From positions 2,740,001 through 2,804,000 of the forward strand of contig NZ_WSRO01000002.1 of NCBI RefSeq assembly GCF_009769735.1: a DNA stretch of 64,000 nucleotides. The letters run 5' to 3'. The notes under the pieces are model-generated. The model had not been told where the DNA came from. It did not search any database and saw only the letters and a list, made by a program, of their open reading frames with translations. The stretch comes from Streptomyces sp. BA2. GTDB lineage: Bacteria > Actinomycetota > Actinomycetes > Streptomycetales > Streptomycetaceae. The translations under genes and the position numbers were made by a program. Every line of letters starts with the position of its first letter. The stretch's first letter is position 1. This document shows positions 304 to 19,156 of this stretch, one piece after another.

Positions 304-1295
304 AGGTCCTCCTCCCCCTGTCGGAACAACGTACGGATGTAGACGACCGTGATGGCGAGGAGCAGCAGGGTCAGCAGGACCGCTGCCGCCGCGCCCGTGC
401 CGTAGTCGTTCTTGGCGAACGCCTGGATGTAGGAGAAGACGCCGAGGTTGTAGACCTCTTCGTTGGCGCCGTCGCCGCCCGGCATCAGATAGATCTGGGT
501 GAAGACCTTGAAGTCCCAGATGGTGGAGAGGATGGTCACCACGAGGAAGACCGGCTTGATCGTCGGCAGCGTGATCTTCCAGAACCGCTGCCAGGCGTTG
601 GCGCCGTCCAGCTCCCCCGCTTCGTAGAGCTCCTTGGGGATCGTCATCAGGCCCGCGAGGACGGTGATGGCGACGAACGGGAAGCCGTGGTGGACGACGT
701 TCAGGGTCGCGATCGCGTAGAACGGCCCGCGCTCGGTGAACCAGTTGGTGGTCTCGGGGTCGATGAGCCCCATCGAGCCCGCGATCTGGCTGACCATGCC
801 GTCCTGCGGCTGGAAGAGCCAGATCCAGACGTACGTCCCGGTGACGGCGGGCATCGCCCAGGCCGCGAGGATCGCGATGGAGCAGATGAGCCGCCACGTC
901 GGGCCGAGGCGGTTGAGCAGCAGTGCGACGAGGGTGCCGAGCGCGACGGTGAGGCCGACGCAGGCGATCGCGAAGAACGCCGTGTTGGGCAGGACCGTCT
1001 TCCACAGGAGTCCGCTGCCGAGCAGGTCGGTGTAGTGGTCGAATCCGGTGTACGTGCCCACTCCGCCGCCGAATTTGACGGCGTAGTCCTGCATCGAGAG
1101 CTTGCCGACCTGGATCAGCGGCCAGAGCAGCAGGCCCGCGAGGACCAGGAGGGACGGTGCGAGGAGGAGCCACGGCCGGGTGAGGCCGACCAGCTTCTTC
1201 TTGCGCAGGGCCGCTTCGTGTTCGGGGCGGGGGGCTGCGGGGCGACGGGCCTCGGCGCCTTCCTTCGGCCCGTCGCTGACGAACGTGTCTTTCAC
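300..1295 (-). CDS. Carbohydrate ABC transporter permease, MalF type
   Basis: 331-residue inner-membrane permease. After a charged N-terminal segment there are about six transmembrane helices, starting near residue 40. The EAA loop that docks on the ATPase is seen as EAGELDGANAWQRFWKITLP near residues 225-245. It starts with GTG, 19 bp after the binding-protein stop, and overlaps the next permease by 4 bp, so the three genes form one operon. No ATPase gene is present in the window; Streptomyces sugar importers of this class often share the distant MsiK ATPase (family knowledge). The sugar is unknown. Confidence 0.92.
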   Translation of the reverse strand: MKDTFVSDGPKEGAEARRPAAPRPEHEAALRKKKLVGLTRPWLLLAPSLLVLAGLLLWPLIQVGKLSMQDYAVKFGGGVGTYTGFDHYTDLLGSGLLWKTVLPNTAFFAIACVGLTVALGTLVALLLNRLGPTWRLICSIAILAAWAMPAVTGTYVWIWLFQPQDGMVSQIAGSMGLIDPETTNWFTERGPFYAIATLNVVHHGFPFVAITVLAGLMTIPKELYEAGELDGANAWQRFWKITLPTIKPVFLVVTILSTIWDFKVFTQIYLMPGGDGANEEVYNLGVFSYIQAFAKNDYGTGAAAAVLLTLLLLAITVVYIRTLFRQGEEDL

Positions 1296-4508: not shown

Positions 4509-9078
<4,570 letters not shown>

Positions 9079-9383
9079 TGGCTCTCCCGTCGTCGTCGTG
9101 GCATAGGCAAAAAGCGAGGGACGACGTTGGCCCAGGCAAAATTTCGTGCAGGTTACATGATGGAACGCTTCTCGAAAAGCGGATAGCTCATTCCACCATG
9201 TGGACACCGCCCGTAGGCGTGGGGAGCGGTGGGGGACCTCTGCGGACAGATCGATGACCGTAGGCCCGAGAGCGGCACAGGCCTCATTGCCCGCAGCGCT
9301 TACGGCTCATGCCCGGTGGTTAAGGATTCGAAACCGCCGAGTAACGGCTAGTTATGCAGAGTCCCGCATAGGACTGCAAGGGT
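9079..9383. other. gltB upstream region, no gene
   Basis: 305 bp between gltB and the VIT-family gene. It is less GC-rich than its surroundings and must hold the gltB promoter. On the minus strand it shows a GlnR-like motif (9141-9156) and an imperfect nested hairpin at about 9158-9200 (ATGGTGGAA against TTCCATCAT, with CGCTT/AAGCG inside). I found no open frame with a credible ribosome site and no RNA gene. Confidence 0.6.
9141..9156 (-). promoter_or_regulatory. GlnR-like binding motif upstream of gltB
   Basis: The minus strand reads GTAAC-6 nt-GAAAT, which fits the GTnAC-n6-GAAAC half of the actinobacterial GlnR box except for the last base. It lies about 62 bp before the gltB start, a natural position for nitrogen control. 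The match is by eye and one half-box could occur by chance. Confidence 0.35.
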
Positions 9384-10115
9384 TCATCCTACGGCGGTAC
9401 CGAACAAGCTGCCCAGGGCGTACGTCACACCCGCCGCCGCCCCGCCGAGCGCGAGCTGCCGAAGTCCGCTGAACCACCAGGAACGCGCGGTCACCTTCGC
9501 CACAACGGCGCCGCAGGCGAAGAGCCCGACCAGCGCGAGCAGCAGCGCGGGCCAGAACGTGTCGGCGCCGAGCAGATACGGCAGTACGGGAAGCAGGGCG
9601 CCGAGCGCGAAGGCGCCGAAGGAGGAGACCGCGGCGACGGCCGGGGACGGCAGATCGCCGGGATCGATGCCCAGCTCCTCGCGCGCGTGGATCTCCAGGG
9701 CCTGCTCGGGGTCCTTGGACAGCTGCTTGGCGACCTCGCGGGCGAGCCCCGGCTCGACGCCGCGCGACACGTACAGCGCGGCGAGCTCCCGCTCCTCGTC
9801 CGCCGGGTGCTTGCGCAACTCCCGCCGCTCCACGTCGAGTTCGGCCTGCACGAGCTCACGCTGCGAGGCGACGGAGGTGTACTCACCGGCCGCCATGGAG
9901 AAGGCGCCCGCGGCGAGGCCGACCAGACCCGTGACGACGATGGTCTGCTGCGAGACGGCTCCGCCGGCGACACCGGTCATCAGGGCCAGGTTGGACACCA
10001 GGCCGTCCATCGCGCCGAAGACGGCGGGGCGCAGCCAGCCGCCGTTGACGTCGCGGTGGGTGTGGTTGTCGCGGTGCGCCTCGTGCAGTGCCGCTTCGGT
10101 CTCGATGATCGCCAT
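9384..10115 (-). CDS. VIT1/CCC1-family membrane protein (Fe/Mn transporter-like)
   Basis: 243-residue membrane protein of the vacuolar iron transporter family, which moves Fe2+ or Mn2+ across membranes. GAMDGLVSNLALMTGVAGG (about residues 32-50) and SMAAGEYTSVASQRE are the conserved first and second helix motifs. A charged cytoplasmic metal-binding stretch follows (ELDVERRELRKHPADEEREL), then three C-terminal helices. ATG 10115 was chosen because it opens the conserved part (MAIIETEAALHEAHRDNHTH); upstream in-frame sequence lies in the divergent promoter region. The His-rich N-terminus could bind metal. It is divergent from the hydrolase cluster and probably unrelated to it. Confidence 0.88.
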   Translation of the reverse strand: MAIIETEAALHEAHRDNHTHRDVNGGWLRPAVFGAMDGLVSNLALMTGVAGGAVSQQTIVVTGLVGLAAGAFSMAAGEYTSVASQRELVQAELDVERRELRKHPADEERELAALYVSRGVEPGLAREVAKQLSKDPEQALEIHAREELGIDPGDLPSPAVAAVSSFGAFALGALLPVLPYLLGADTFWPALLLALVGLFACGAVVAKVTARSWWFSGLRQLALGGAAAGVTYALGSLFGTAVG

Positions 10116-10327
10116 GGTGGGCCCCCTCAATGCTTGGACGATCTCGAAAGTACGCGCGAAAAATCGCTCTCGCCAGCAAGGAAGGCCGTACTTACCTGCA
10201 TGAACAAGCGTCTGTCGAACCGGTGAGCGCATGCGTCGGAGGGGTGACGTCGGCGGTGCGGATGCTCGCCTCCGGGGCGCCGCGTGGCAGAGATACCCGC
10301 AACGTCTCGGCACCATGGAGGCACGGC

Positions 10328-11317
10328 ATGACGGGCTCGACCGGTGTGACAGGAGCGACCGGCCTGAGAGAGCGGGCGCGCGGCGCGCTTCTCGGCCTCG
10401 CGGTAGGGGACGCGCTGGGCGCGCCCGCCGAGAACATGAAGCCGTCGGAGATCCGCCGCCGCTGGGGACGCATCACCGGGTACGTCGCCGAGCACCCGTC
10501 GGGCACGGACGACACCGAGTACGCGATCTTCTCCGGGCTCCTCCTGGCCCGGCACGGCTCGGCGCTCACCGTCGCGCACGTCGAGGCGGCCTGGCACGAG
10601 TGGATCGCGGACCTCGACGAAGGCCCTTTCCGGGGCGCGGGCTTCAGCGAACGCGGCACGCTGGAGAACCTGCGCCGCGGCCTCGCGGCGCCCATCTCGG
10701 CGCAGCACCGGCACGCGTGGAGCGACGGCCTCGCGATGCGGGCCGCCCCGTTCGGGGTCTTCGCCGCGGGGCGGCCCGCCGAAGCGGCCCGGCTCGTCGC
10801 GATCGACGGCTCCGTCAGCCATGACGGTGAGGGCATCTACGGCGGGCAGGCGGTGGCCGCGGGGGTCGCGGCGGCGATGGGCGGGGCGCCGGTGGATTCC
10901 GTGGTGGCCGCGGCGCTGTCCGTCATCCCGGAGGACTGCTGGACGTCCCGTTCGCTGCGGCGTGCGGTGGCGGTGGCGCATCGGGGGGAACGGGCGGTGC
11001 GCTCCGCCGTGGTGATCGGCGGCTATCCGTGGACCGACCTCGCCCCCGAGGCGGTGGGGCTCGCCTTCGGGGCGTACGGGGTGGCCTGCGGCCGTTTCCC
11101 GGAGGCGGTGTTGACCGCGGTCAACATGGGGCGGGACGCGGATACGACTGCCGCTGTGGCTGGAGCGCTGTCCGGCGCGTCCTGCGGGGTTTCGGCGATT
11201 CCCCCGCCGTGGGCGGCGGCCATCGCTCCCGCGCGGGGGAGTTGTCTGCCTTCCATGCGGGGGCATCACGTGCTGGACATCGCGGAGTTGCTCGTTTCTG
11301 ACCGGGGGGTCTCGTGA
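10328..11317 (+). CDS. ADP-ribosylglycohydrolase family protein, paralog 1
   Basis: 329-residue ADP-ribosylglycohydrolase fold, a di-metal (Mg/Mn) hydrolase family that cleaves N- or O-glycosidic bonds to ribose (DraG, ARH1-3, E. coli YegU). GLAVGDALGAP (23-33) is the family entry motif. T60-D61-D62-T63 and D270-A271-D272-T273 are the two metal-binding motifs and both are intact. Start ATG 10328 is preceded by GGAGGC; the frame is open upstream to 10130 but without a site. It is the first gene of a seven-gene chain, and its stop overlaps the next GTG by 4 bp. The true substrate is unknown. Confidence 0.9.
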   Translation: MTGSTGVTGATGLRERARGALLGLAVGDALGAPAENMKPSEIRRRWGRITGYVAEHPSGTDDTEYAIFSGLLLARHGSALTVAHVEAAWHEWIADLDEGPFRGAGFSERGTLENLRRGLAAPISAQHRHAWSDGLAMRAAPFGVFAAGRPAEAARLVAIDGSVSHDGEGIYGGQAVAAGVAAAMGGAPVDSVVAAALSVIPEDCWTSRSLRRAVAVAHRGERAVRSAVVIGGYPWTDLAPEAVGLAFGAYGVACGRFPEAVLTAVNMGRDADTTAAVAGALSGASCGVSAIPPPWAAAIAPARGSCLPSMRGHHVLDIAELLVSDRGVS

Positions 11318-12654
11318 CCGCCGACAAGCCCGGCGCTTCGCGCCGGATCTCTCCCACCCACCCACCCGTTTACCCCGCAGCAGCTCCTGCTGTGGGCAGG
11401 CGTTCCGCAGGGCGGAACGGGTGGGCACAGCCCACGATGCGGGGTGCGGATGGAAGCGGCGTCCACCGAAGCGAGGCGCCCAGGGCGTACATCGAGGGGC
11501 TCCTTCTGGGCCTCGCCGCAGGCGACGCCGCCGGGTGGCCTGCCGCCCGCCACAGGGCAAGCCGCATGCCGGAGTGGACCCGAAGACTCACCCGCGAACT
11601 GGACACCTTCGCCGAGCAGAATGCCACCACCACCCTCCCCGTCCCCATCGCCCTCAATCAACCCCCAGAGCCCCTCCGCCTGGGCCCCTCCGACGACGCC
11701 GAATGGGCGGCCTTCACCGCCGAATCACTGCTCCGCGCTGCGGACGGGACGCTCGACCCCCAGCTGCCCCCGAACCGCCGGGTCCGCGCGACCCTGGACA
11801 TTGCCTGGGGCGCCCTCGCCAGCGAAATCGCCGCCGCAGCGGCCCGCGCCCCCGAGGTCGAGTCCGCCGTACTCCCCCTCCGCGCCCGCATCTCCGTACG
11901 CGCGGGCCTCGGCAACCTCGCCACCGGCCTGCGCCCGCCCGCCACCGGCCACGACAACCCCCACTTCTTCGACGACGCCGCCTGCGTACGCGCCTGCGTC
12001 CTGGCCCTGGTCCACCCGGGCGACCCCGAACAGGCCGCCGCCCTGGCCGAGTTCGACGCCCGCTACACCCAGGACGGGGACGGCGTGCACGGTGCCCGCG
12101 CCATGGCCGCGGCGATCGCGGCGGCGCTCGGCGGCGCGGACGTCGACGCGAGCGTGGACGCCGCCCTGGCCCAGCTCCCCGAGCACACCGAGATCGGCCG
12201 CAACGCCTGGCACGCCGTCAAGCTCGCCCGCACCCAGACAACAGAGGGTGACGGCGCCTTCGGTCTCGTCCCGCTCCTGGAGCACCAGATCGTCGACCAC
12301 GTCTACAGCTACGGCATCGCCGCCGCCGAGACCGTCCCGGTCGCCCTCGCCCTGACCACCGCGGCCCGCGGCCGCATCCGTGACGCGGTGCCCTCCGCCG
12401 CCTGCCTCTCCCGCGTCGCCGACTCCGCCCCCGCCCTGACCGGCGCGCTGACCGGCGCGCTCGGCACGGCCACCGCCATCCCCGAAGCCTGGCGCGACGC
12501 CTGCCGCACCCTCTCCGGCTGCGCGCTGCCCCGCCTCGCGGGCACCGACCTGGTGGAACTCGCCGGGCACCTGGCAGCCACGGAACTGACCGCTCCGGGA
12601 GGACAATTCCGGCATGACGCCATCAATGGAACCAACGGGCCCGGATCTCCCTGA
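11314..12654 (+). CDS. ADP-ribosylglycohydrolase family protein, paralog 2 (degenerate metal site)
   Basis: 446 residues from the coupled GTG. The family domain begins only at AYIEGLLLGLAAGDAAGWP, about residue 60; the first 40-50 codons are read through repeat DNA (11331-11429). ATG 11437 is an alternative start beyond the repeat. The first metal motif is S126-D127-D128-A129 (DDA instead of DDT). The second is R367-V-A-D370-S, so the first Asp of DxD(S/T) is replaced by Val. The fold seems kept (DGDGVHGARAMAAAIAAALG), but catalysis is doubtful. It may be a pseudoenzyme partner of the adjacent paralogs. It overlaps paralog 3 by 41 bp. Confidence 0.82.
   Translation: MTADKPGASRRISPTHPPVYPAAAPAVGRRSAGRNGWAQPTMRGADGSGVHRSEAPRAYIEGLLLGLAAGDAAGWPAARHRASRMPEWTRRLTRELDTFAEQNATTTLPVPIALNQPPEPLRLGPSDDAEWAAFTAESLLRAADGTLDPQLPPNRRVRATLDIAWGALASEIAAAAARAPEVESAVLPLRARISVRAGLGNLATGLRPPATGHDNPHFFDDAACVRACVLALVHPGDPEQAAALAEFDARYTQDGDGVHGARAMAAAIAAALGGADVDASVDAALAQLPEHTEIGRNAWHAVKLARTQTTEGDGAFGLVPLLEHQIVDHVYSYGIAAAETVPVALALTTAARGRIRDAVPSAACLSRVADSAPALTGALTGALGTATAIPEAWRDACRTLSGCALPRLAGTDLVELAGHLAATELTAPGGQFRHDAINGTNGPGSP
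11391..11429. repeat. 39-bp dispersed repeat, copy 1 (inside paralog 2 frame)
   Basis: Identical over 39 bp to 13994-14032. The core is CGTTCCGC-AGG-GCGGAACG, an 8-bp perfect hairpin, flanked by GTGGGC and GGGTGGGCAC segments. It falls in the N-terminal extension of the second hydrolase gene, next to sequence (11331-11372) related to the hairpin at 2847-2937. Such hairpins are usually intergenic in Streptomyces. Confidence 0.85.
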
Positions 12655-13777
12655 CCGCATCACCGCCTGCCTGGTCGGAGCAGCCGTCGGCGACGCCATG
12701 GGCGGCCCCGTCGAGGGCTACTCCCCCGAGCAGATCGTCGAACGGCACGGCGGTCGCGTACACGGCATCGTCGGCCCCTGGAACGGCGACCACTGGCGCA
12801 CCGCCCGTCCCATCGCGCCGTACCACAAGGGTGACGGGCACGTCACCGACGACACCTTGATGACGCACGCGCTCATCCGCGTGTACGCCGCCGTCCGCGA
12901 TCACTTGGACGCCTACGCGGTCGCCGACCACCTGGTCCCCGACCTCATGACCCACCCCCGCTGGATCCCGGAACTGGAGACGGAGGCCATCCCGCTCCAC
13001 CGGCTCTTCCTCGCCGAGAAGTGGATCGTCGCCCGCATCCACTACGGCCACGTCGACCCGCGCGAGGCCGGCACGGGAAACATCGTCAACTGCGGTGCCG
13101 CGATGTACATGGCACCGGTCGGTCTGGTCAACGCGGCGAACCCGGAGGGCGCGTACGCCGAGGCCCTCGACATCGCGGGCGCGCACCAGTCCTCGTACGG
13201 ACGTGAGGCGGCCGCGGTCTTCGCGGCGGCGGTGGCGGCGGCCTGCGCGCCGGGTGCGACGCCGACCTCGGTGATCGACACCGCCCTCTCCCTCGCGAAG
13301 GACGGAACGCGGGCCGCGATCGATTCGGCGGCCGAAGTCGCCTCCCACCACCGGGACTTCGAGTCCGCGCTCGTCCCCCTGCGCACCGCTGTCACCCCCT
13401 TCGACACGGTCGGCCAGGACTACCGCGCCCCGTCACTCGGGGCCCGCCGCCCCTCCCGCCTGCACTCCATCGAGGAACTGCCGATCGCGCTCGGCATGCT
13501 CCTGGTGGGCGACGGCGACTACCGCCACACGGTGCTCGGCTCGGTCAACTACGGCCGCGACTGCGACTCCATCGCGACCATGAGCGGCGCGATCGCCGGC
13601 GCGCTCGGCTCGGGCGCCCCGCCTGAGTGGTCGAAGACGGTCGAGGAGGCGAGCCGCCTCGACCTGCACGCCCCCGCGGCGACGCTCACGGAGGTCACCC
13701 AGGAGATCTTCACCCGTGACGTACGCCGCCGCCGCGCCCACGAGTCGGCGTACGCGGCCCTGACGGCCACCCCATGA
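12614..13777 (+). CDS. ADP-ribosylglycohydrolase family protein, paralog 3
   Basis: 387-residue member with the canonical motifs. GAAVGDAMGGPVEG (22-35) opens the domain. T78-D79-D80-T81 and D316-C317-D318-S319 (NYGRDCDS) are intact metal sites, and NCGAAMYMAPVG and AGAHQSSYGREAAAVFAAAV are conserved in the larger YegU-like branch. ATG 12614 lies inside the end of paralog 2 and has GGGAGGA about 9 bp upstream, so it can be initiated independently. It overlaps paralog 4 by ATGA. It is the longest uninterrupted and most orthodox of the four paralogs, and the best candidate for an active enzyme. Confidence 0.92.
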   Translation: MTPSMEPTGPDLPDRITACLVGAAVGDAMGGPVEGYSPEQIVERHGGRVHGIVGPWNGDHWRTARPIAPYHKGDGHVTDDTLMTHALIRVYAAVRDHLDAYAVADHLVPDLMTHPRWIPELETEAIPLHRLFLAEKWIVARIHYGHVDPREAGTGNIVNCGAAMYMAPVGLVNAANPEGAYAEALDIAGAHQSSYGREAAAVFAAAVAAACAPGATPTSVIDTALSLAKDGTRAAIDSAAEVASHHRDFESALVPLRTAVTPFDTVGQDYRAPSLGARRPSRLHSIEELPIALGMLLVGDGDYRHTVLGSVNYGRDCDSIATMSGAIAGALGSGAPPEWSKTVEEASRLDLHAPAATLTEVTQEIFTRDVRRRRAHESAYAALTATP

Positions 13778-15177
13778 TCCGCCTCACCTGGGTCCAGCCG
13801 GAGGACTTGGTGGGCCACGAACTGCGCCAGGCGGAGGAGGAGGGCAAGGACGTCGAGGCCATCAAGTCCCGCTGGCTGACAGCGGGCGGCCACTTGGCTC
13901 CCACCAGAGCAGGCGCGTCCCCAACACCCCCCGCTCCCCAGCTACGGGCTTTGGCGGAGGAGCTACTGACCGAACTGTCGCAGCCGCCCGCGTTGTGGGC
14001 AGGCGTTCCGCAGGGCGGAACGGGTGGGCACAACGCCACCCACCGGGCCGCACCGAAAAGCGAGGCCCCGCGGCAGGCGGTTTCGGGAAGGGGCGGGCTT
14101 GGGGAAAAAGAAGCCCTACGTCACCGCCTACACGCGGCCTGGCTAGGCAGAGCGGCAGGCTGCCTACTGGGCAAGCCAGTGGAGAAACTCCCCCTGACCG
14201 CCATCAGAAGCCTCGCCCAAGCAACAGGGAACTGGCCCCTCACCACCTGGTTCACAGAAAAGGGCCTCCCCCCGGAGCTAAGGGAAGCCCACCCCTGGAA
14301 CAAGCGCTCCGCGCAAACCTCCCTCGCCGAGAACATCGACGGCATGCCGGAGGACGACGACCTCAACTACCCCCTCCTCAACCTCCGCCTCCTCCAACGC
14401 CACGGCAGGACCTTCACCACCACGGACGTGGCAAAGCTCTGGCTGGACGAGCTCCCCGCGGCCCGCACCTTCACCGCCGAACGCATCGCCTACCGCAACC
14501 TCCTGTGCGGCATCGAGCCCCCGCACACCGCCACCCACCACAACCCCTTCCGCGAATGGATCGGCGCCCTGATCCGCGCCGACGTCCACGGCTGGACGAA
14601 CCCGGGCGCACCCACGGCCGCCGCCGACCAGGCCCGCCGCGACGCGAGCCTCAGCCACACCGCCAACGGCGTGTACGGCGCGATGTTCGCGGCGGCCACC
14701 ATCGCCGAGGCGGCGGCAGGCACCGGAGACGTCCACCACTGCCTTCGCACGGGCCTCACCGTTGTACCGCAGGACTCGCGCCTGTCCCGCGCGATCCACC
14801 ACGGCATCCAACTTGCCTGCACAGCAACGGACTTCGACCACATCGTGGACGACCTCCACGCCGCCTACGGTCACCACCACTGGGTCCACGTCATCCCCAA
14901 CGCCGCCCTCCTGTCCGCCGCCCTCACCCACGCCGACGGCGACTTCACCGGCTCCATCACGCGCGCGGTCTCCGGCGGCTGGGACACCGACTCGAACGGC
15001 GCGACCGCGGGGTCGATCGCGGGCCTGCTCGCCGGGCGCCCCGACGCGCTCCCGGACCGCTGGACCGCCCCGCTCAAAAACCGCCTCACCAGCTCGATCA
15101 CCGGCTTCGACGGCATCGGCTTCGACACTCTCGCCGACCTCACCACCAAACTCGCCCAGGAGAGACCCCACCCATGA
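13774..15177 (+). CDS. ADP-ribosylglycohydrolase family protein, paralog 4 with inserted linker
   Basis: 467 residues. A distinct N-terminal cap, MIRLTWVQPEDLVGHELRQA through about residue 70, is followed by a low-complexity linker (about 74-112) that contains the second copy of the 39-bp repeat. The hydrolase domain then starts at HAAWLGRAAGCLLGKPVE. The first metal motif is E193-D194-D195-D196, a DDD variant of DDT; the second, W403-D404-T405-D406-S407, is intact. It is coupled by ATGA overlaps to paralog 3 and to the kinase. Codons in the linker look less biased than in the rest, suggesting acquired DNA. Confidence 0.88.
   Translation: MIRLTWVQPEDLVGHELRQAEEEGKDVEAIKSRWLTAGGHLAPTRAGASPTPPAPQLRALAEELLTELSQPPALWAGVPQGGTGGHNATHRAAPKSEAPRQAVSGRGGLGEKEALRHRLHAAWLGRAAGCLLGKPVEKLPLTAIRSLAQATGNWPLTTWFTEKGLPPELREAHPWNKRSAQTSLAENIDGMPEDDDLNYPLLNLRLLQRHGRTFTTTDVAKLWLDELPAARTFTAERIAYRNLLCGIEPPHTATHHNPFREWIGALIRADVHGWTNPGAPTAAADQARRDASLSHTANGVYGAMFAAATIAEAAAGTGDVHHCLRTGLTVVPQDSRLSRAIHHGIQLACTATDFDHIVDDLHAAYGHHHWVHVIPNAALLSAALTHADGDFTGSITRAVSGGWDTDSNGATAGSIAGLLAGRPDALPDRWTAPLKNRLTSSITGFDGIGFDTLADLTTKLAQERPHP
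13994..14032. repeat. 39-bp dispersed repeat, copy 2 (inside paralog 4 frame)
   Basis: Identical to 11391-11429, here encoding residues about 74-87 of paralog 4 (WAGVPQGGTGGHN). The outer bases GTTGTG and CACAAC also pair, giving a longer imperfect hairpin than copy 1. The frame stays open through it. Confidence 0.85.
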
Positions 15178-16097
15178 CCCACATCGCCGTGCTCGGCAGC
15201 ACGAACATGGACCTCGTCGCGTACGTCGCCAAGGCACCGCAGCGCGGGGAGACCGTCACCGGGCGCGAGTTCCGTACGCTCCCCGGCGGCAAGGGCGCCA
15301 ACCAGGCCGTCGCCGCGGCCCGCGCGGGCGCCGACGCCGTGTCGATGATCGGCGCGGTCGGCGCCGACGCCTTCGGCACACAGCTGCGCTCCGCGCTCGA
15401 ACACTCCGGTGTCGACACCGACCTGCTGCGCACCGTCGACACCGCGGCCACCGGCACCGCGCACATCGTGGTCGACGACGACGGCGGCAACGCGATCGTC
15501 GTCATCCCCGGCGCCAACGCCACGCTCACCGCGCTCGCCCCCGGCGACGAGGGCCTGATCACCTCCGCCGACACCCTCCTGCTCCAGCTGGAGATCCCCG
15601 TCGAGGGGGTGCTCGCCGCCGCGCAGGCCGCCCGCAGGCACGGCGTGCGCACCATCCTCACACCGGCGCCCGCCCAACCCCTGCCTCCCGAACTCCTCGA
15701 CGCCATCGACCTGTTGGTGCCGAACGAGCACGAGGCGGCCACCCTCACCGGCCTGACCGAACCGCACGCCGCCGCCAGGTCACTCCTCTCCCAGGTCCCC
15801 GAAGTCGTCGTCACGCTCGGCTCGCGCGGCAGCCTGTACGCGACCAGAGGCGCCGAGCCGGTCATGGTGGAGGCCCCGCACGTCACCGCCGTGGACACGA
15901 CCGGTGCGGGCGACACGTTCGTCGGCACCCTCGCGGTGGCCCTGGCCGAGGGCGGCTCCGTGCCGGACGCGCTCACGTGGGCGTCGTCGGCCGCCGCGCT
16001 CTCCGTCCAGCGCCCGGGGGCGTCGGCGTCCATGCCGTTCCGCTCCGAGATCGACACCCAGGCGAACGGATCCCGGACGGACGGCGCCGCGTCATGA
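15174..16097 (+). CDS. Ribokinase-like PfkB-family sugar kinase
   Basis: 307-residue PfkB carbohydrate kinase. MTHIAVLGSTNMDL is the ribokinase-type beginning, LPGGKGANQAVAAARAG (about 38-54) is PfkB signature 1 for sugar binding, and DTTGAGDTFVGTLAVALAEG (about 242-261) is signature 2 with the catalytic Asp and anion hole. The length is typical of RbsK. The likely reaction is ATP-dependent phosphorylation of ribose or a ribosyl compound. It starts within the paralog 4 stop (ATGA) and ends within the CoA-transferase start (ATGA). Its placement suggests that it phosphorylates the sugar released by the hydrolases; this is inference. Confidence 0.92.
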   Translation: MTHIAVLGSTNMDLVAYVAKAPQRGETVTGREFRTLPGGKGANQAVAAARAGADAVSMIGAVGADAFGTQLRSALEHSGVDTDLLRTVDTAATGTAHIVVDDDGGNAIVVIPGANATLTALAPGDEGLITSADTLLLQLEIPVEGVLAAAQAARRHGVRTILTPAPAQPLPPELLDAIDLLVPNEHEAATLTGLTEPHAAARSLLSQVPEVVVTLGSRGSLYATRGAEPVMVEAPHVTAVDTTGAGDTFVGTLAVALAEGGSVPDALTWASSAAALSVQRPGASASMPFRSEIDTQANGSRTDGAAS

Positions 16098-17281
16098 CGG
16101 CGCCCCTCACCGGCCTCCGCGTCCTCGACCTGGCGACGCTCTTCGCGGGCCCGCTCGCCGCCACGATGCTCGGCGACTTCGGCGCGGAGGTCATCAAGGT
16201 CGAGCATCCACGGAAGCCGGACCCGTCCCGTGGGCACGGCCCGTCCAAGGACGGCGTCGGCCTCTGGTGGAAGATCCTGGGCCGCAACAAGCGCACGATG
16301 ACGCTCGATCTCTCCACACCCGGCGGCCGCGAGACCCTGCTGCGCCTGGCCGCCACGGCAGACGTGATCGTCGAGAACTTCCGCCCGGGAACCCTGGAGA
16401 AGTGGGACCTCGGCTGGGAGGAGCTGAGCGGGGCGAACCCCCGTCTCGTCCTGACCCGCGTCACGGGCTTCGGCCAGTTCGGCCCGTACTCCCGCCGCCC
16501 CGGCTTCGGCACCCTCGCGGAGGCGATGAGCGGTTTCGCCGCGATCACCGGCGAACCGGACGGACCGCCGACCCTGCCGCCCTTCGGCCTCGCCGACTCG
16601 ATCGCGGGGCTCGCGACGGCGTACGCGGTGATGACGGCGCTCGCGGCCCGTGACCGGACGGGCAAGGGCCAGGTGGTGGACATGGCGATCATCGAGCCGA
16701 TCCTCACGGTCCTCGGCCCGCAGCCGACCTGGTACGACCAGCTGGGCCATGTGCAGCCCCGCACCGGCAACCGCTCCACCAACAACGCGCCCCGCAACAC
16801 CTACCGTACGGCGGACGGCAGTTGGGTCGCCGTCTCCACCTCTGCCCAGTCGATCGCGGAGCGCGTGATGCGCCTGGTGGGCCGCCCGGAGCTGATCTCC
16901 GAGCCCTGGTTCGCGACGGGCGCGGACCGCGCGGCCCACACGGACGAGCTCGACGGTGCGGTCGGCGGCTGGATCGCCCTGCACACCCGCGCCGAGGTGA
17001 TCGAGGCCTTCGAGAAGGCGGAGGCGGCGGTCGCTCCCATCCAGGACGTACGCGACGTGATGACCGATCCCCAGTACGCGGCCCTGGACACCGTCACCAC
17101 GGTCGATGACCCGGAGCTCGGCCCGCTGCGCATGCAGAACGTCCTCTTCCGCCTCTCCGAGACGCCGGGCTCGATCGGCTGGGCGGGCCGCCCGCATGGA
17201 GCGGACACGGCGGAGGTCCTGACCGAACTCGGCCTGACGGAAGGGGAGATCGCGAGGCTGCGCAAGGAGGGCGCCCTGTGA
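16094..17281 (+). CDS. CaiB/BaiF family III CoA-transferase
   Basis: 395-residue CoA-transferase that moves CoA between carboxylic acids through an aspartyl-CoA intermediate. The N-terminal MTAPLTGLRVLDLATLFAGP and FGAEVIKVEHP are family hallmarks. Asp168 in GLADSIAG is at the position of the catalytic Asp of formyl-CoA transferase. NRSTNNAPRNTYRTADG is the usual small-domain motif. The length is normal. Coupled upstream to the kinase (ATGA) and downstream to the lyase (GTGA). With the next gene it suggests activation and cleavage of a dicarboxylic or hydroxy acid as a CoA ester; the acid is unknown. Confidence 0.92.
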   Translation: MTAPLTGLRVLDLATLFAGPLAATMLGDFGAEVIKVEHPRKPDPSRGHGPSKDGVGLWWKILGRNKRTMTLDLSTPGGRETLLRLAATADVIVENFRPGTLEKWDLGWEELSGANPRLVLTRVTGFGQFGPYSRRPGFGTLAEAMSGFAAITGEPDGPPTLPPFGLADSIAGLATAYAVMTALAARDRTGKGQVVDMAIIEPILTVLGPQPTWYDQLGHVQPRTGNRSTNNAPRNTYRTADGSWVAVSTSAQSIAERVMRLVGRPELISEPWFATGADRAAHTDELDGAVGGWIALHTRAEVIEAFEKAEAAVAPIQDVRDVMTDPQYAALDTVTTVDDPELGPLRMQNVLFRLSETPGSIGWAGRPHGADTAEVLTELGLTEGEIARLRKEGAL

Positions 17282-18111
17282 AGGACACTCCTCTGACCTG
17301 GCTGTACGCGCCCGGGGACCGGCCGTCCGTCGTGGCGAAGGCGCTGCTCGCGGGCGCCGACGTCGTCATCGTCGACCTGGAGGACGCGGTCGGCCCTGAC
17401 CGCAAGGAGTACGCGCGAGCGGCGACGGCCGAGCTGCTCTCCGAACCTCCCGCCGTCCCGGTCCACGTCCGAGTGAACGCCCTGGACAGCCCCCTGGCCG
17501 AGGCCGACCTCGGAGCGATCGCGCACCTCCCCGGGGTCTCCGGTCTTCGCCTGCCGAAGGTGACCTGCCCCGCCGACGTCGTGCGCGTCGCGGAGCGGTC
17601 GGCTCCCGCGGACGGCGGCGCCCCCGCCCTGCACGCCCTGATCGAATCGGCCGTCGGCCTGGAGCACGCCTTCGCCATCGCCACCGCGCACCCGGCCCTG
17701 CACGGGCTCTCCCTCGGCGAGGCGGACCTCCGCGCGGACCTGGGCGTACGTGACGACGCGGGCCTCGACTGGTCCCGCGCCCGCGTGGTGGTGGCAGCCC
17801 GGGCCGCGGGCCTGGTACCGCCCGCGCAGTCGGTGTACGCCGACATCCGTGACGTCCAGGGCCTGACGGCGTCCTGCGCGCACGGCCGTTCCCTGGGGTT
17901 CCTGGGCCGCGCCGCGATCCATCCACGCCAGCTCCCGGCCATCGAACGTGCCTACCTCCCCACCCCGGAGGAGATCGACCACGCCGAGCAGATCGTCAAG
18001 GCGTCCACGACGGAGGCGGGCGCCTTGGCGCTCCCGGACGGCACGTTCGTGGACAAGGCCGTGGTGGACGGCGCGCGGCGCGTCCTCGACCTGGCGCGGC
18101 GGCGCCCCTAG
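17278..18111 (+). CDS. HpcH/HpaI aldolase / citrate lyase beta-like CoA-ester lyase
   Basis: 277 residues with a TIM-barrel CitE-like fold. LYAPGDRPSVVAKALLAGAD, VIVDLEDAVGPDRK (metal-site Glu/Asp) and GLRLPKV are the typical motifs, followed by ALIESAVGLEHAF and GRAAIHPRQLPAIERA. Family members cleave or form malyl-, citramalyl- or citryl-CoA type esters with Mg2+. The start is GTG, overlapping the CoA-transferase stop by 4 bp. It is the last gene of the seven-gene chain, with a strong terminator 11 bp after the stop. Pairing with a CoA-transferase is common in itaconate or citramalate type catabolism. Confidence 0.9.
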   Translation: MKDTPLTWLYAPGDRPSVVAKALLAGADVVIVDLEDAVGPDRKEYARAATAELLSEPPAVPVHVRVNALDSPLAEADLGAIAHLPGVSGLRLPKVTCPADVVRVAERSAPADGGAPALHALIESAVGLEHAFAIATAHPALHGLSLGEADLRADLGVRDDAGLDWSRARVVVAARAAGLVPPAQSVYADIRDVQGLTASCAHGRSLGFLGRAAIHPRQLPAIERAYLPTPEEIDHAEQIVKASTTEAGALALPDGTFVDKAVVDGARRVLDLARRRP

Positions 18112-18202: not shown

Positions 18203-19156
18203 TCAGCCCTTCTTGGCGGACTCGGCTCCGTCCTTGCCCTTGTCCCCTGTGTCCGCCGTGCTCTCGGTGTCGTCGTCCTTGGACGGCTTCGCGTCCTCGC
18301 CCTCCGAAGGCTCCGAAGCGTCCGTGGCCCCCTCGCCGTCAGGCACGGGCTCGACGATCTCCTCGCGCCCGGGGCGCTTCTTCGCGGAGAGCACGAAGTA
18401 GACGACGGCGAGCACGAACACCGCGATGGCGGTCCAGACGTTGAGGCGCAGCCCGAGCACGTGGTGCGCGTCGTCGACCCGCATGTACTCGATCCAGCCG
18501 CGACCGGCGCAGTACGACGCGACGTACAGGGCGAACGCACGGCCGTGTCCCAGCTTGAAGCGGCGGTCGGCCCAGATGACGAGGAAGCCGACGCCGATGC
18601 ACCAGAGGGACTCGTAGAGGAACGTCGGGTGGTACGTGCCGGGCACCCGGCCGTCCTCCGCCGACGTGATCTTCAGCGCCCACGGCAGATCCGTGGCCTT
18701 GCCGTACAGCTCCTGGTTGAACCAGTTGCCCCAGCGGCCGATCGCCTGGGCGAAGGCGACGCCGGGGGCGAGGGCGTCGGCCCAGGCCGGCAGCGGAATG
18801 CCGCGCCGGCGACAGCCGATCCAGGCACCGACCGCGCCGAACGCGATCGCGCCCCAGATACCGAGGCCGCCCTCCCAGATCTTGAAGGCGTCCACCCAGT
18901 CACGGCCATCGCTGAAGTACAGCTGGTAGTCCGTGATCACGTGGTAGAGACGCCCGCCGACGAGGCCGAACGGCACGGCCCAGACGGAGATGTCGGCCAC
19001 GGTGCCTGGGCGGCCCCCGCGAGCGATCCACCGCTTGTTGCCGAGCCAGACGGCGACGAAGACGCCGATGATGATGCAGAACGCGTAGCCGCGCAGCGGA
19101 ATGGGTCCGAGTTCGACCACACCGCGCGACGGGCTGGGAATGAAGGCAAGGTCCAT
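18203..19156 (-). CDS. lgt: Prolipoprotein diacylglyceryl transferase
   Basis: 317-residue integral membrane enzyme that attaches diacylglyceryl from phosphatidylglycerol to the lipobox Cys of prolipoproteins. WEGGLGIWGAIAFG and IGRWGNWFNQELYG are the signature motifs (the latter normally GRWGNFxNxE), with PTFLYESLWC further on and about seven helices. The C-terminal 45 residues are a charged, Ser/Asp/Glu/Lys-rich tail not needed in the family core but common in actinobacteria. ATG 19156 opens the conserved MDLAFIPSPSRGV. It is in the same orientation as, and downstream of, the DsbA-like gene. Confidence 0.95.
   Translation of the reverse strand: MDLAFIPSPSRGVVELGPIPLRGYAFCIIIGVFVAVWLGNKRWIARGGRPGTVADISVWAVPFGLVGGRLYHVITDYQLYFSDGRDWVDAFKIWEGGLGIWGAIAFGAVGAWIGCRRRGIPLPAWADALAPGVAFAQAIGRWGNWFNQELYGKATDLPWALKITSAEDGRVPGTYHPTFLYESLWCIGVGFLVIWADRRFKLGHGRAFALYVASYCAGRGWIEYMRVDDAHHVLGLRLNVWTAIAVFVLAVVYFVLSAKKRPGREEIVEPVPDGEGATDASEPSEGEDAKPSKDDDTESTADTGDKGKDGAESAKKG

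Follow-up and report, generated by a model that had tools for sequence, protein, structure and literature searches.

In the genome of Streptomyces sp. BA2 (10.04 Mb), a 64,000 nt stretch that we refer to as the window (contig NZ_WSRO01000002.1, positions 2,740,001 to 2,804,000) carries a cluster of seven genes, here designated G1 to G7, coding for four ADP-ribosylglycohydrolase (ARH)-fold proteins, a ribokinase, a family III CoA-transferase and a CitE-like CoA-ester lyase. This gene set appears to be the core of a broad glycoside-acid catabolic operon and, in most of the Streptomyces that retain it, stands without transporter and control genes. The seven products probably form the core set of enzymes with which a furanosyl glycoside of an acid, in all likelihood a riboside, is broken down; D-ribose is somewhat favoured as the sugar, and a citramalate-like compound is tentatively suggested as the acid. 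What is new here is the insight provided by the operons of relatives, with their LacI regulators, sugar ABC transporters and alternative acid modules.

The seven open reading frames (ORFs), all on the + strand, were confirmed at 10328..18111 of the window. G1 (10328..11317), G2 (11314..12654, GTG start), G3 (12614..13777) and G4 (13774..15177, with an N-terminal extension) match PF03747 with 200.2, 127.5, 162.6 and 159.4 bits (E values of 7.6e-59, 1.1e-36, 2.1e-47 and 2e-46), all above the Pfam cut-off of 26.2 bits, and the first-pass annotation, which had described four consecutive paralogs of one hydrolase family, was correct in this; it had missed that the four are old, separate clades and not recent copies. 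Its kinase, CoA-transferase and CitE-like lyase calls also agree with Pfam, which places G5 (15174..16097) in PF00294, G6 (16094..17281) in PF02515 (E value 6.5e-124) and G7 (17278..18111, GTG start) in PF03328 (E value 4.7e-36). The overlaps, in order from G1-G2 to G6-G7, are 4, 41, 4, 4, 4 and 4 bp, just as they had been reported.

The two-metal motifs (GxPxE, TDDT or EDDD, GxDxDT/S) are present in G1, G3 and G4, conservative T to S changes being allowed. The G1 motifs GDxxGxPxE, TDDT and GRDADT are kept in 45/45 alignment rows, barring two T to S changes, and those of G3, the core hydrolase, in 46/48, one of the remaining two rows being gapped and the other broken. In G4, which is of the EDDD / GWDTDSN type, DDD is found in 45/45 rows and the D-T-D-S of the third motif in 44/45. 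G2 departs from the pattern at all three sites, since the glutamate is replaced by A or S in 41/42 rows (the other has a gap), while S/G-DD-A replaces TDDT and the third-motif D is changed to V or L, both in 42/42 rows. The altered active site of G2 is thus fixed, a feature overlooked in the first description of the cluster. ORFs of more than 1000 aa called for G2 in some relatives were dismissed as an artefact of ORF calling, the stop codon sitting near the G3 start. G3 is approximately 40–44% identical to its counterparts on rhizobial plasmids; G4 groups with a Mycolicibacterium ARH in the tree, and it resembles the long form of rhizobia only weakly (27–30% identity in the Ensifer and Sinorhizobium rows), the two being sister groups.

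Among the downstream proteins, G5 passes the NCBIfam ribokinase model TIGR02152 (328.9 bits, cut-off 299.65) and misses the PRK11142 ribokinase model (277.9 vs 341), and its GGKG and AGD residues are kept in 34/34 rows. The aspartate of the LAD motif of G6, and in G7 the D, E and D of DLED, the R of VRV and the E of the IES motif, are each present in 42/42 rows. Both G6 and G7 score above their Pfam cut-offs and below every equivalog cut-off; for G6, the succinate-glutarate and formyl/oxalate CoA-transferase equivalogs were missed by wide intervals (240.7 vs 750, 215.9 vs 504.2 and 179.3 vs 522).

The first-pass annotation held that finding the genes unclustered in other Streptomyces would speak against a common pathway, but the gene order recurs, and G3 is present in 150/199 sampled Streptomyces genomes (E value up to 1e-60). 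The comparison covered 26 relatives and 27 stretches, as two came from the same genome, and the order gltB-VIT-G1-G2-G3-G4-(G5)-G6-G7-lgt was found as far as the contigs extend, with three exceptions: a split case (L038, L047), a decayed cluster (L045), and a cluster without those flanks (L043). In the split genome, G1 lies alone beside gltB, G2 and G3 are paired elsewhere, and G4 to G7 are in neither stretch; this pairing suggests that G2 and G3 work together. Decay was seen in two stretches, L045 (G2 not found, G4 and G7 broken) and L046 (G3 in two frames). Of the 26 stretches bearing G3, 18 have G5, G6 and G7, six lack G5 only, and two have none of the three (one of these being a contig end).

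The junctions, measured with start codons picked by script, are tight. The G4-G5 junction is -4 in 18/18 Streptomyces loci and in 14/15 other loci, and that of G6-G7 is -4 in 19/24 Streptomyces loci. G2 and G3 overlap or lie no more than 20 bp apart in 22/25, with overlaps of 35–68 bp (41 in the window) in 6/25 relatives. Between G1 and G2 a 4-bp overlap was called in 12/24 relatives, with gaps of up to 1160 bp in the set; given those called overlaps, the gap was rejected as proof of separate transcription. The recurrent order and tight junctions show that the grouping exceeds chance. For one genome pair (the window's genome and its nearest relative among those found, with 93% identity in G3), a simple counting method gave dN/dS values of 0.14, 0.34, 0.16, 0.26, 0.22, 0.10 and 0.12 for G1 to G7, respectively, and 0.37 and 0.16 for the flanking lgt and VIT genes. 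All seven genes are under purifying selection, and the cluster is maintained.

Relatives of the cluster were sought by tblastn on plasmids, by searches of class and genus genomes, and by a scan of genome contigs. Within the class, the G3 profile matches 62/394 genomes, in 15/137 genera (E value up to 1e-30). Outside Streptomyces, we examined 21 actinobacterial loci, comprising 20 of the 33 out-of-genus matches plus Nonomuraea gerenzanensis, and in all of them matches to LacI, permease and solute-binding protein (SBP) genes lie near G3 on the same strand, followed by the hydrolases. G1 was found in 18 of these loci, G2 in 16, G4 in 20, ribokinase in 15, CoA-transferase in 17 and lyase in 16, some contigs being cut. 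The arrangement of a LacI-controlled CUT1 sugar ABC operon, with LacI, two permeases and SBP adjacent, is seen in 21/21 other actinobacterial loci, and it also occurs in three Streptomyces (L194–L196), which carry the complete 11-gene order LacI-permease-permease-SBP-G1-G2-G3-G4-G5-G6-G7 (G7 of L196 was matched in two pieces); it is absent beside the window cluster. Among the 109 Streptomyces having both genes, 9 carry the SBP gene no more than 5 kb from G3, as counted by eye. The binding protein of the Nonomuraea type has its nearest matches among proteins that bind sugars and oligosaccharides. Upstream of LacI, an operator palindrome with the core GKAAACGTTTMC is found in 17/21 of the non-Streptomyces loci, a count that is descriptive and not independent because the consensus was taken from the same loci. 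The palindrome is also present in the three complete Streptomyces operons; the fourth transporter-bearing locus of the genus (L043) is cut before LacI. Reversed patterns gave no hits, although such a control has few chances in GC-rich DNA.

Similar operons extend well beyond the Actinobacteria. Of 14 plasmid loci, 11 are annotated, with incomplete gene tables, and two of these (Ensifer and Sinorhizobium) list LacI-permease-permease-SBP-ARH-ARH-UgpC-CoA transferase-CoA ester lyase, while three (Mycolicibacterium, Agrobacterium HAMBI 105 and Deinococcus) have a ribokinase with ARH and transporter genes. The three loci without annotation are those of Ensifer adhaerens (L061), with the full CoA form, Nonomuraea, with G1 to G5, and Halostella, with ARH and UgpC-like matches only. 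Figures for the Proteobacteria and Firmicutes come from the best 80 of the matches listed in the genome-contig scan and represent a sample. Within it, 31 of the 47 proteobacterial loci have both CoA genes, six the transferase only and one the lyase only, under the score limits of the analysis. Ribokinase is present in 27 of the 33 Firmicute loci, and their acid module is usually a different one: 29 carry AtuA (PF07287) with DUF4387 (e.g., L161 4086-5755, L157 4851-6578, plus 27 others), two have the CoA-transferase and lyase, two have neither, and none has both. We take DUF1446 to be the older name of AtuA. The interchange of the two modules suggests that they have one function and share an acid substrate. 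A neighbourhood search had been proposed as a check on the cluster, and it does find a ribokinase or the CoA-transferase-lyase pair recurring beside relatives of G3 or G4 in other bacteria.

Two additional protein features are associated with these operons. The second hydrolase (long form) that was modelled from the related operons of Proteobacteria and Firmicutes has a CBM66-like domain, which is absent from window G4, where the hydrolase domain lies C-terminal. An extra protein accompanies the operon in 10 loci (8 actinobacterial, 2 alphaproteobacterial; e.g., L107 4782-6779) and appears to combine a GH13/GH27-like barrel with a C-terminal FGE-sulfatase-type domain, three members having been checked against Pfam. 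The GH13/GH27 likeness is only suggestive, as the model has a modest pLDDT of 62.1. A minimal version of the operon occurs in Caballeronia and Paraburkholderia (L132, L141, L154), where LacI, a transporter of the major facilitator superfamily and G3 were found, with a ribokinase match following in L132.

Taken together, the computed families, gene order, co-occurrence, motifs, selection and absence of the operator allow a pathway to be predicted, in which every reaction and substrate is inferred. In other lineages, a LacI repressor would control a CUT1-type ABC transporter that imports the compound. The two-metal sites of G3 and G4, aided by G1, would cleave glycosidic bonds, after which the ribokinase (G5) would convert free ribose to ribose-5-phosphate, the CoA-transferase (G6) would activate the released acid, and the CitE-like lyase (G7) would split the resulting acyl-CoA, giving an oxo-acid and acetyl-CoA. 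The likely role of G2 is that of a non-catalytic partner of G3, structural or holding the substrate, because its key residues have been lost, yet the gene is conserved and adjoins G3. In the lineage of the window, the set would have come to stand between gltB-VIT and lgt with no regulator, operator or transporter beside it, and selection has retained it. It may therefore now process an endogenous compound or rely on a lone, related transporter encoded elsewhere in the genome. The scheme put forward by the first-pass annotation (riboside hydrolysis, ribose phosphorylation, then activation and splitting of the acid) fits the comparative data; ribose as the sugar, the nature of the acid and the enzyme activities are predictions.

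The nearest parallel for the acid branch is itaconate/citramalate degradation (Rip/Ict-Ich-Ccl), in which CoA activation is followed by CitE-type cleavage, although none of the seven genes specifies a hydratase. In E. coli O157:H7, a DUF1446 gene is reported to belong to a gene cluster with the capacity for (S)-citramalate synthesis, and the authors describe the later fate of this product as unclear (PMC4682846). Together with the RipC-like character of G7, this points to a citramalate-like acid, and it is the weakest link of the proposal.

Several observations weigh against our interpretation and concern the acid, the sugar and the transporter in turn. The best NCBIfam match of G7, RipC_Ccl (NF038242, citramalyl-CoA lyase), gave 169.7 bits and missed its cut-off of 375, and, in the portion of the source available, the link between AtuA and citramalate rests on one figure legend. 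G5 is missing in 6/24 Streptomyces loci that have G6 and G7, and ribokinase is near just 4/47 of the sampled proteobacterial loci, which together leave ribose uncertain; 6/11 annotated plasmid loci list neither kinase nor CoA pair, in tables that are incomplete. No part of the window matches LacI or SBP, and its nearest permease match is 9 kb from the cluster. The palindrome was found in 0/24 gltB-lgt loci, in neither the window (one mismatch allowed) nor the rest of its genome, and in 0/45 of the loci L112–L156.

The transporter question can be taken further. The first-pass annotation had noted that no transporter lies inside the cluster, and this holds for the window, but it had missed the LacI and sugar ABC transporter genes of orthologous operons, which make the absence a derived condition. 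Most simply, the regulator, its operator and the transporter would have disappeared, or stayed behind, in one event. A permease-like stretch near the left edge of the window (312-1100, - strand) was rejected as the missing transporter: it is 9 kb off, on the other strand, and matches with 32% identity (83 bits), far below the approximately 60–80% identity of operon permeases among the nearer loci. It seemingly belongs to another transporter. At about 7.16 Mb (L192, approximately 7521-10533; 7.157–7.160 Mb), the genome also has an isolated permease-permease-SBP set, with identities to the Nonomuraea-type proteins of 63, 62 and 53% and no LacI match beside it. Across 199 Streptomyces, SBP and G3 occur together in 109 genomes, G3 only in 41, SBP only in 25 and neither in 24 (Fisher p 0.008); the association is modest, and a separate SBP is present in 25/49 genomes without G3. 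Since one genome (G465) holds both a cluster-linked and a separate SBP copy, the separate permease-SBP set is probably a paralog and merely a candidate supplier.

Of the alternatives, it is possible, though unlikely, that the sugar is another furanose, as in a fructofuranoside or arabinofuranoside, handled by G5 or a chromosomal kinase. CBM66 modules bind fructofuranosyl ends, so the CBM66-like domain of the long-form hydrolases would suit such a substrate, as would the many operons without a nearby ribokinase; ribose is better matched by the score of G5 above the ribokinase cut-off and by the ribokinases found together with ARH genes in Agrobacterium, Deinococcus, Mycolicibacterium and Paenibacillus.

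Salvage of a modified nucleoside, with the hydrolases acting as nucleosidases, the kinase recycling ribose and the CoA module taking an acidic base side chain, is a rather improbable explanation. Staphylococci have an ARH-permease-ribokinase set (SERP2216-2218) with a permease of the cytosine/purine/uracil/allantoin family (PMC3637587), which resembles the present cluster in placing an ARH beside a ribokinase and a transporter, but the passages available describe a single ARH, a nucleobase-type permease and no CoA module. The pairing of yegU and yegV, to which the first-pass annotation had drawn attention, may also fit salvage, the yegTUVW locus of E. coli having an ARH-family protein by a PfkB kinase and a transporter. 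That locus presumably has a single ARH and no CoA-transferase or lyase. Against salvage, the transporters of the related operons are annotated as carbohydrate ABC systems, the binding protein of the Nonomuraea type is closest to sugar binders, and the GH13/GH27-like protein is an additional companion in 10 loci.

There is little probability that the hydrolases are true erasers of protein or nucleic-acid ADP-ribosylation, with downstream genes recycling ribose and unrelated acids. The family name and fold favour this, and, in the accessible parts of two papers, SCO2028-SCO2030 (PMC5087735) and SCO2028-SCO2031 (PMC9411070) are catalogued as uncharacterised DraG/ARH homologues of S. coelicolor; from their number and adjacency, we infer that SCO2028-2031 are G1-G4 of that species. 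In passages of a further study, SCO2028 and SCO2030 were inactive on U-alpha-ADPr, the sole substrate mentioned there (PMC13036486), while the excerpt of trpM work that includes SCO2028 gives just a primer and plasmid description (PMC5036795). Unlike DraG, ARH1 and ARH3 of PF03747, the cluster hydrolases fall far below specific models: the DraG equivalog TIGR02662 (cut-off 337.05) gave 76.7 for G1, 40.1 for G3 and 19.5 for G4, and the Tri1 ADP-ribosylarginine hydrolase model NF041672 (cut-off 490) gave 46.4, 21.1 and 33.7 for G1, G2 and G3. The related operons, with a sugar transporter, LacI, CBM66-like domain and CoA module, centre on carbohydrate import and acid-CoA chemistry. These comparisons weaken a pure eraser role and suggest that ARH-fold enzymes, usually named ADP-ribose erasers, can work as ordinary glycosidases.

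Least probable is that the Streptomyces genes owe their proximity to history alone and have ceased to serve a single pathway, as might be read from the missing regulator, operator and transporter, the loss of G5 in 6/24 loci and the genome with G1 alone and G2-G3 elsewhere, but the tight junctions have been kept and purifying selection acts on all seven genes.

Beyond the cluster, neighbouring genes include gltB (glutamate synthase domains), a DsbA-like gene and trpA. The VIT-family gene (9384..10115, - strand; PF01988, E value 7.1e-69; start chosen in the analysis) is divergent, and lgt (18203..19156, - strand; PF01790, E value 8.5e-65) is convergent; these two mark the sides of the conserved site and are outside the pathway. 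An interspersed palindromic repeat occurs on the + strand in the variable N-terminal part of G2 (11399..11428) and in G4 ahead of the hydrolase domain (14002..14031), i.e., two exact copies within the window vs 0 expected. Across the genome, the 27-bp core of the repeat is found 9 times exactly and 4 more times with one mismatch, and the reversed control has no copies.

No publication describing this operon or pathway was found by title or abstract opening, a weak negative as subscription journals were mostly uncovered, and the literature search returned nothing on rhizolotine, a plant-nodule riboside considered as a possible substrate. The presence of an ARH in the rus ribose locus of Bacteroides could not be confirmed: for this locus the text available gives a ribokinase and a nucleoside hydrolase, and it mentions an ARH at a different locus in another species (PMC10434189). 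A bolder version of our proposal, which we regard as speculative, is that of an undescribed, widespread pathway in which ARH-fold proteins are true glycosidases acting on an imported ribofuranosyl glycoside of a citramalate-like hydroxy-diacid, with G3 and G2 as an active/altered pair and the acid cut via CoA-transferase and lyase or via AtuA-DUF4387; most cluster-bearing Streptomyces would have been freed of transporter and repressor and would recycle an endogenous ribosylated metabolite.

The operon offers a route to the substrate, as the transporter binding protein of relatives can be screened for ligands, and a direct route to the function of AtuA/DUF4387 proteins, which substitute for the CoA module in Firmicutes. 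In the parts available of two surveys, many Streptomyces ARH homologues are counted as ADP-ribosylation hydrolases (PMC5087735, PMC9411070). If G1 to G4 instead serve as glycosidases in a catabolic operon, the tally, and with it the picture of lively bacterial ADP-ribosylation, would need revision.

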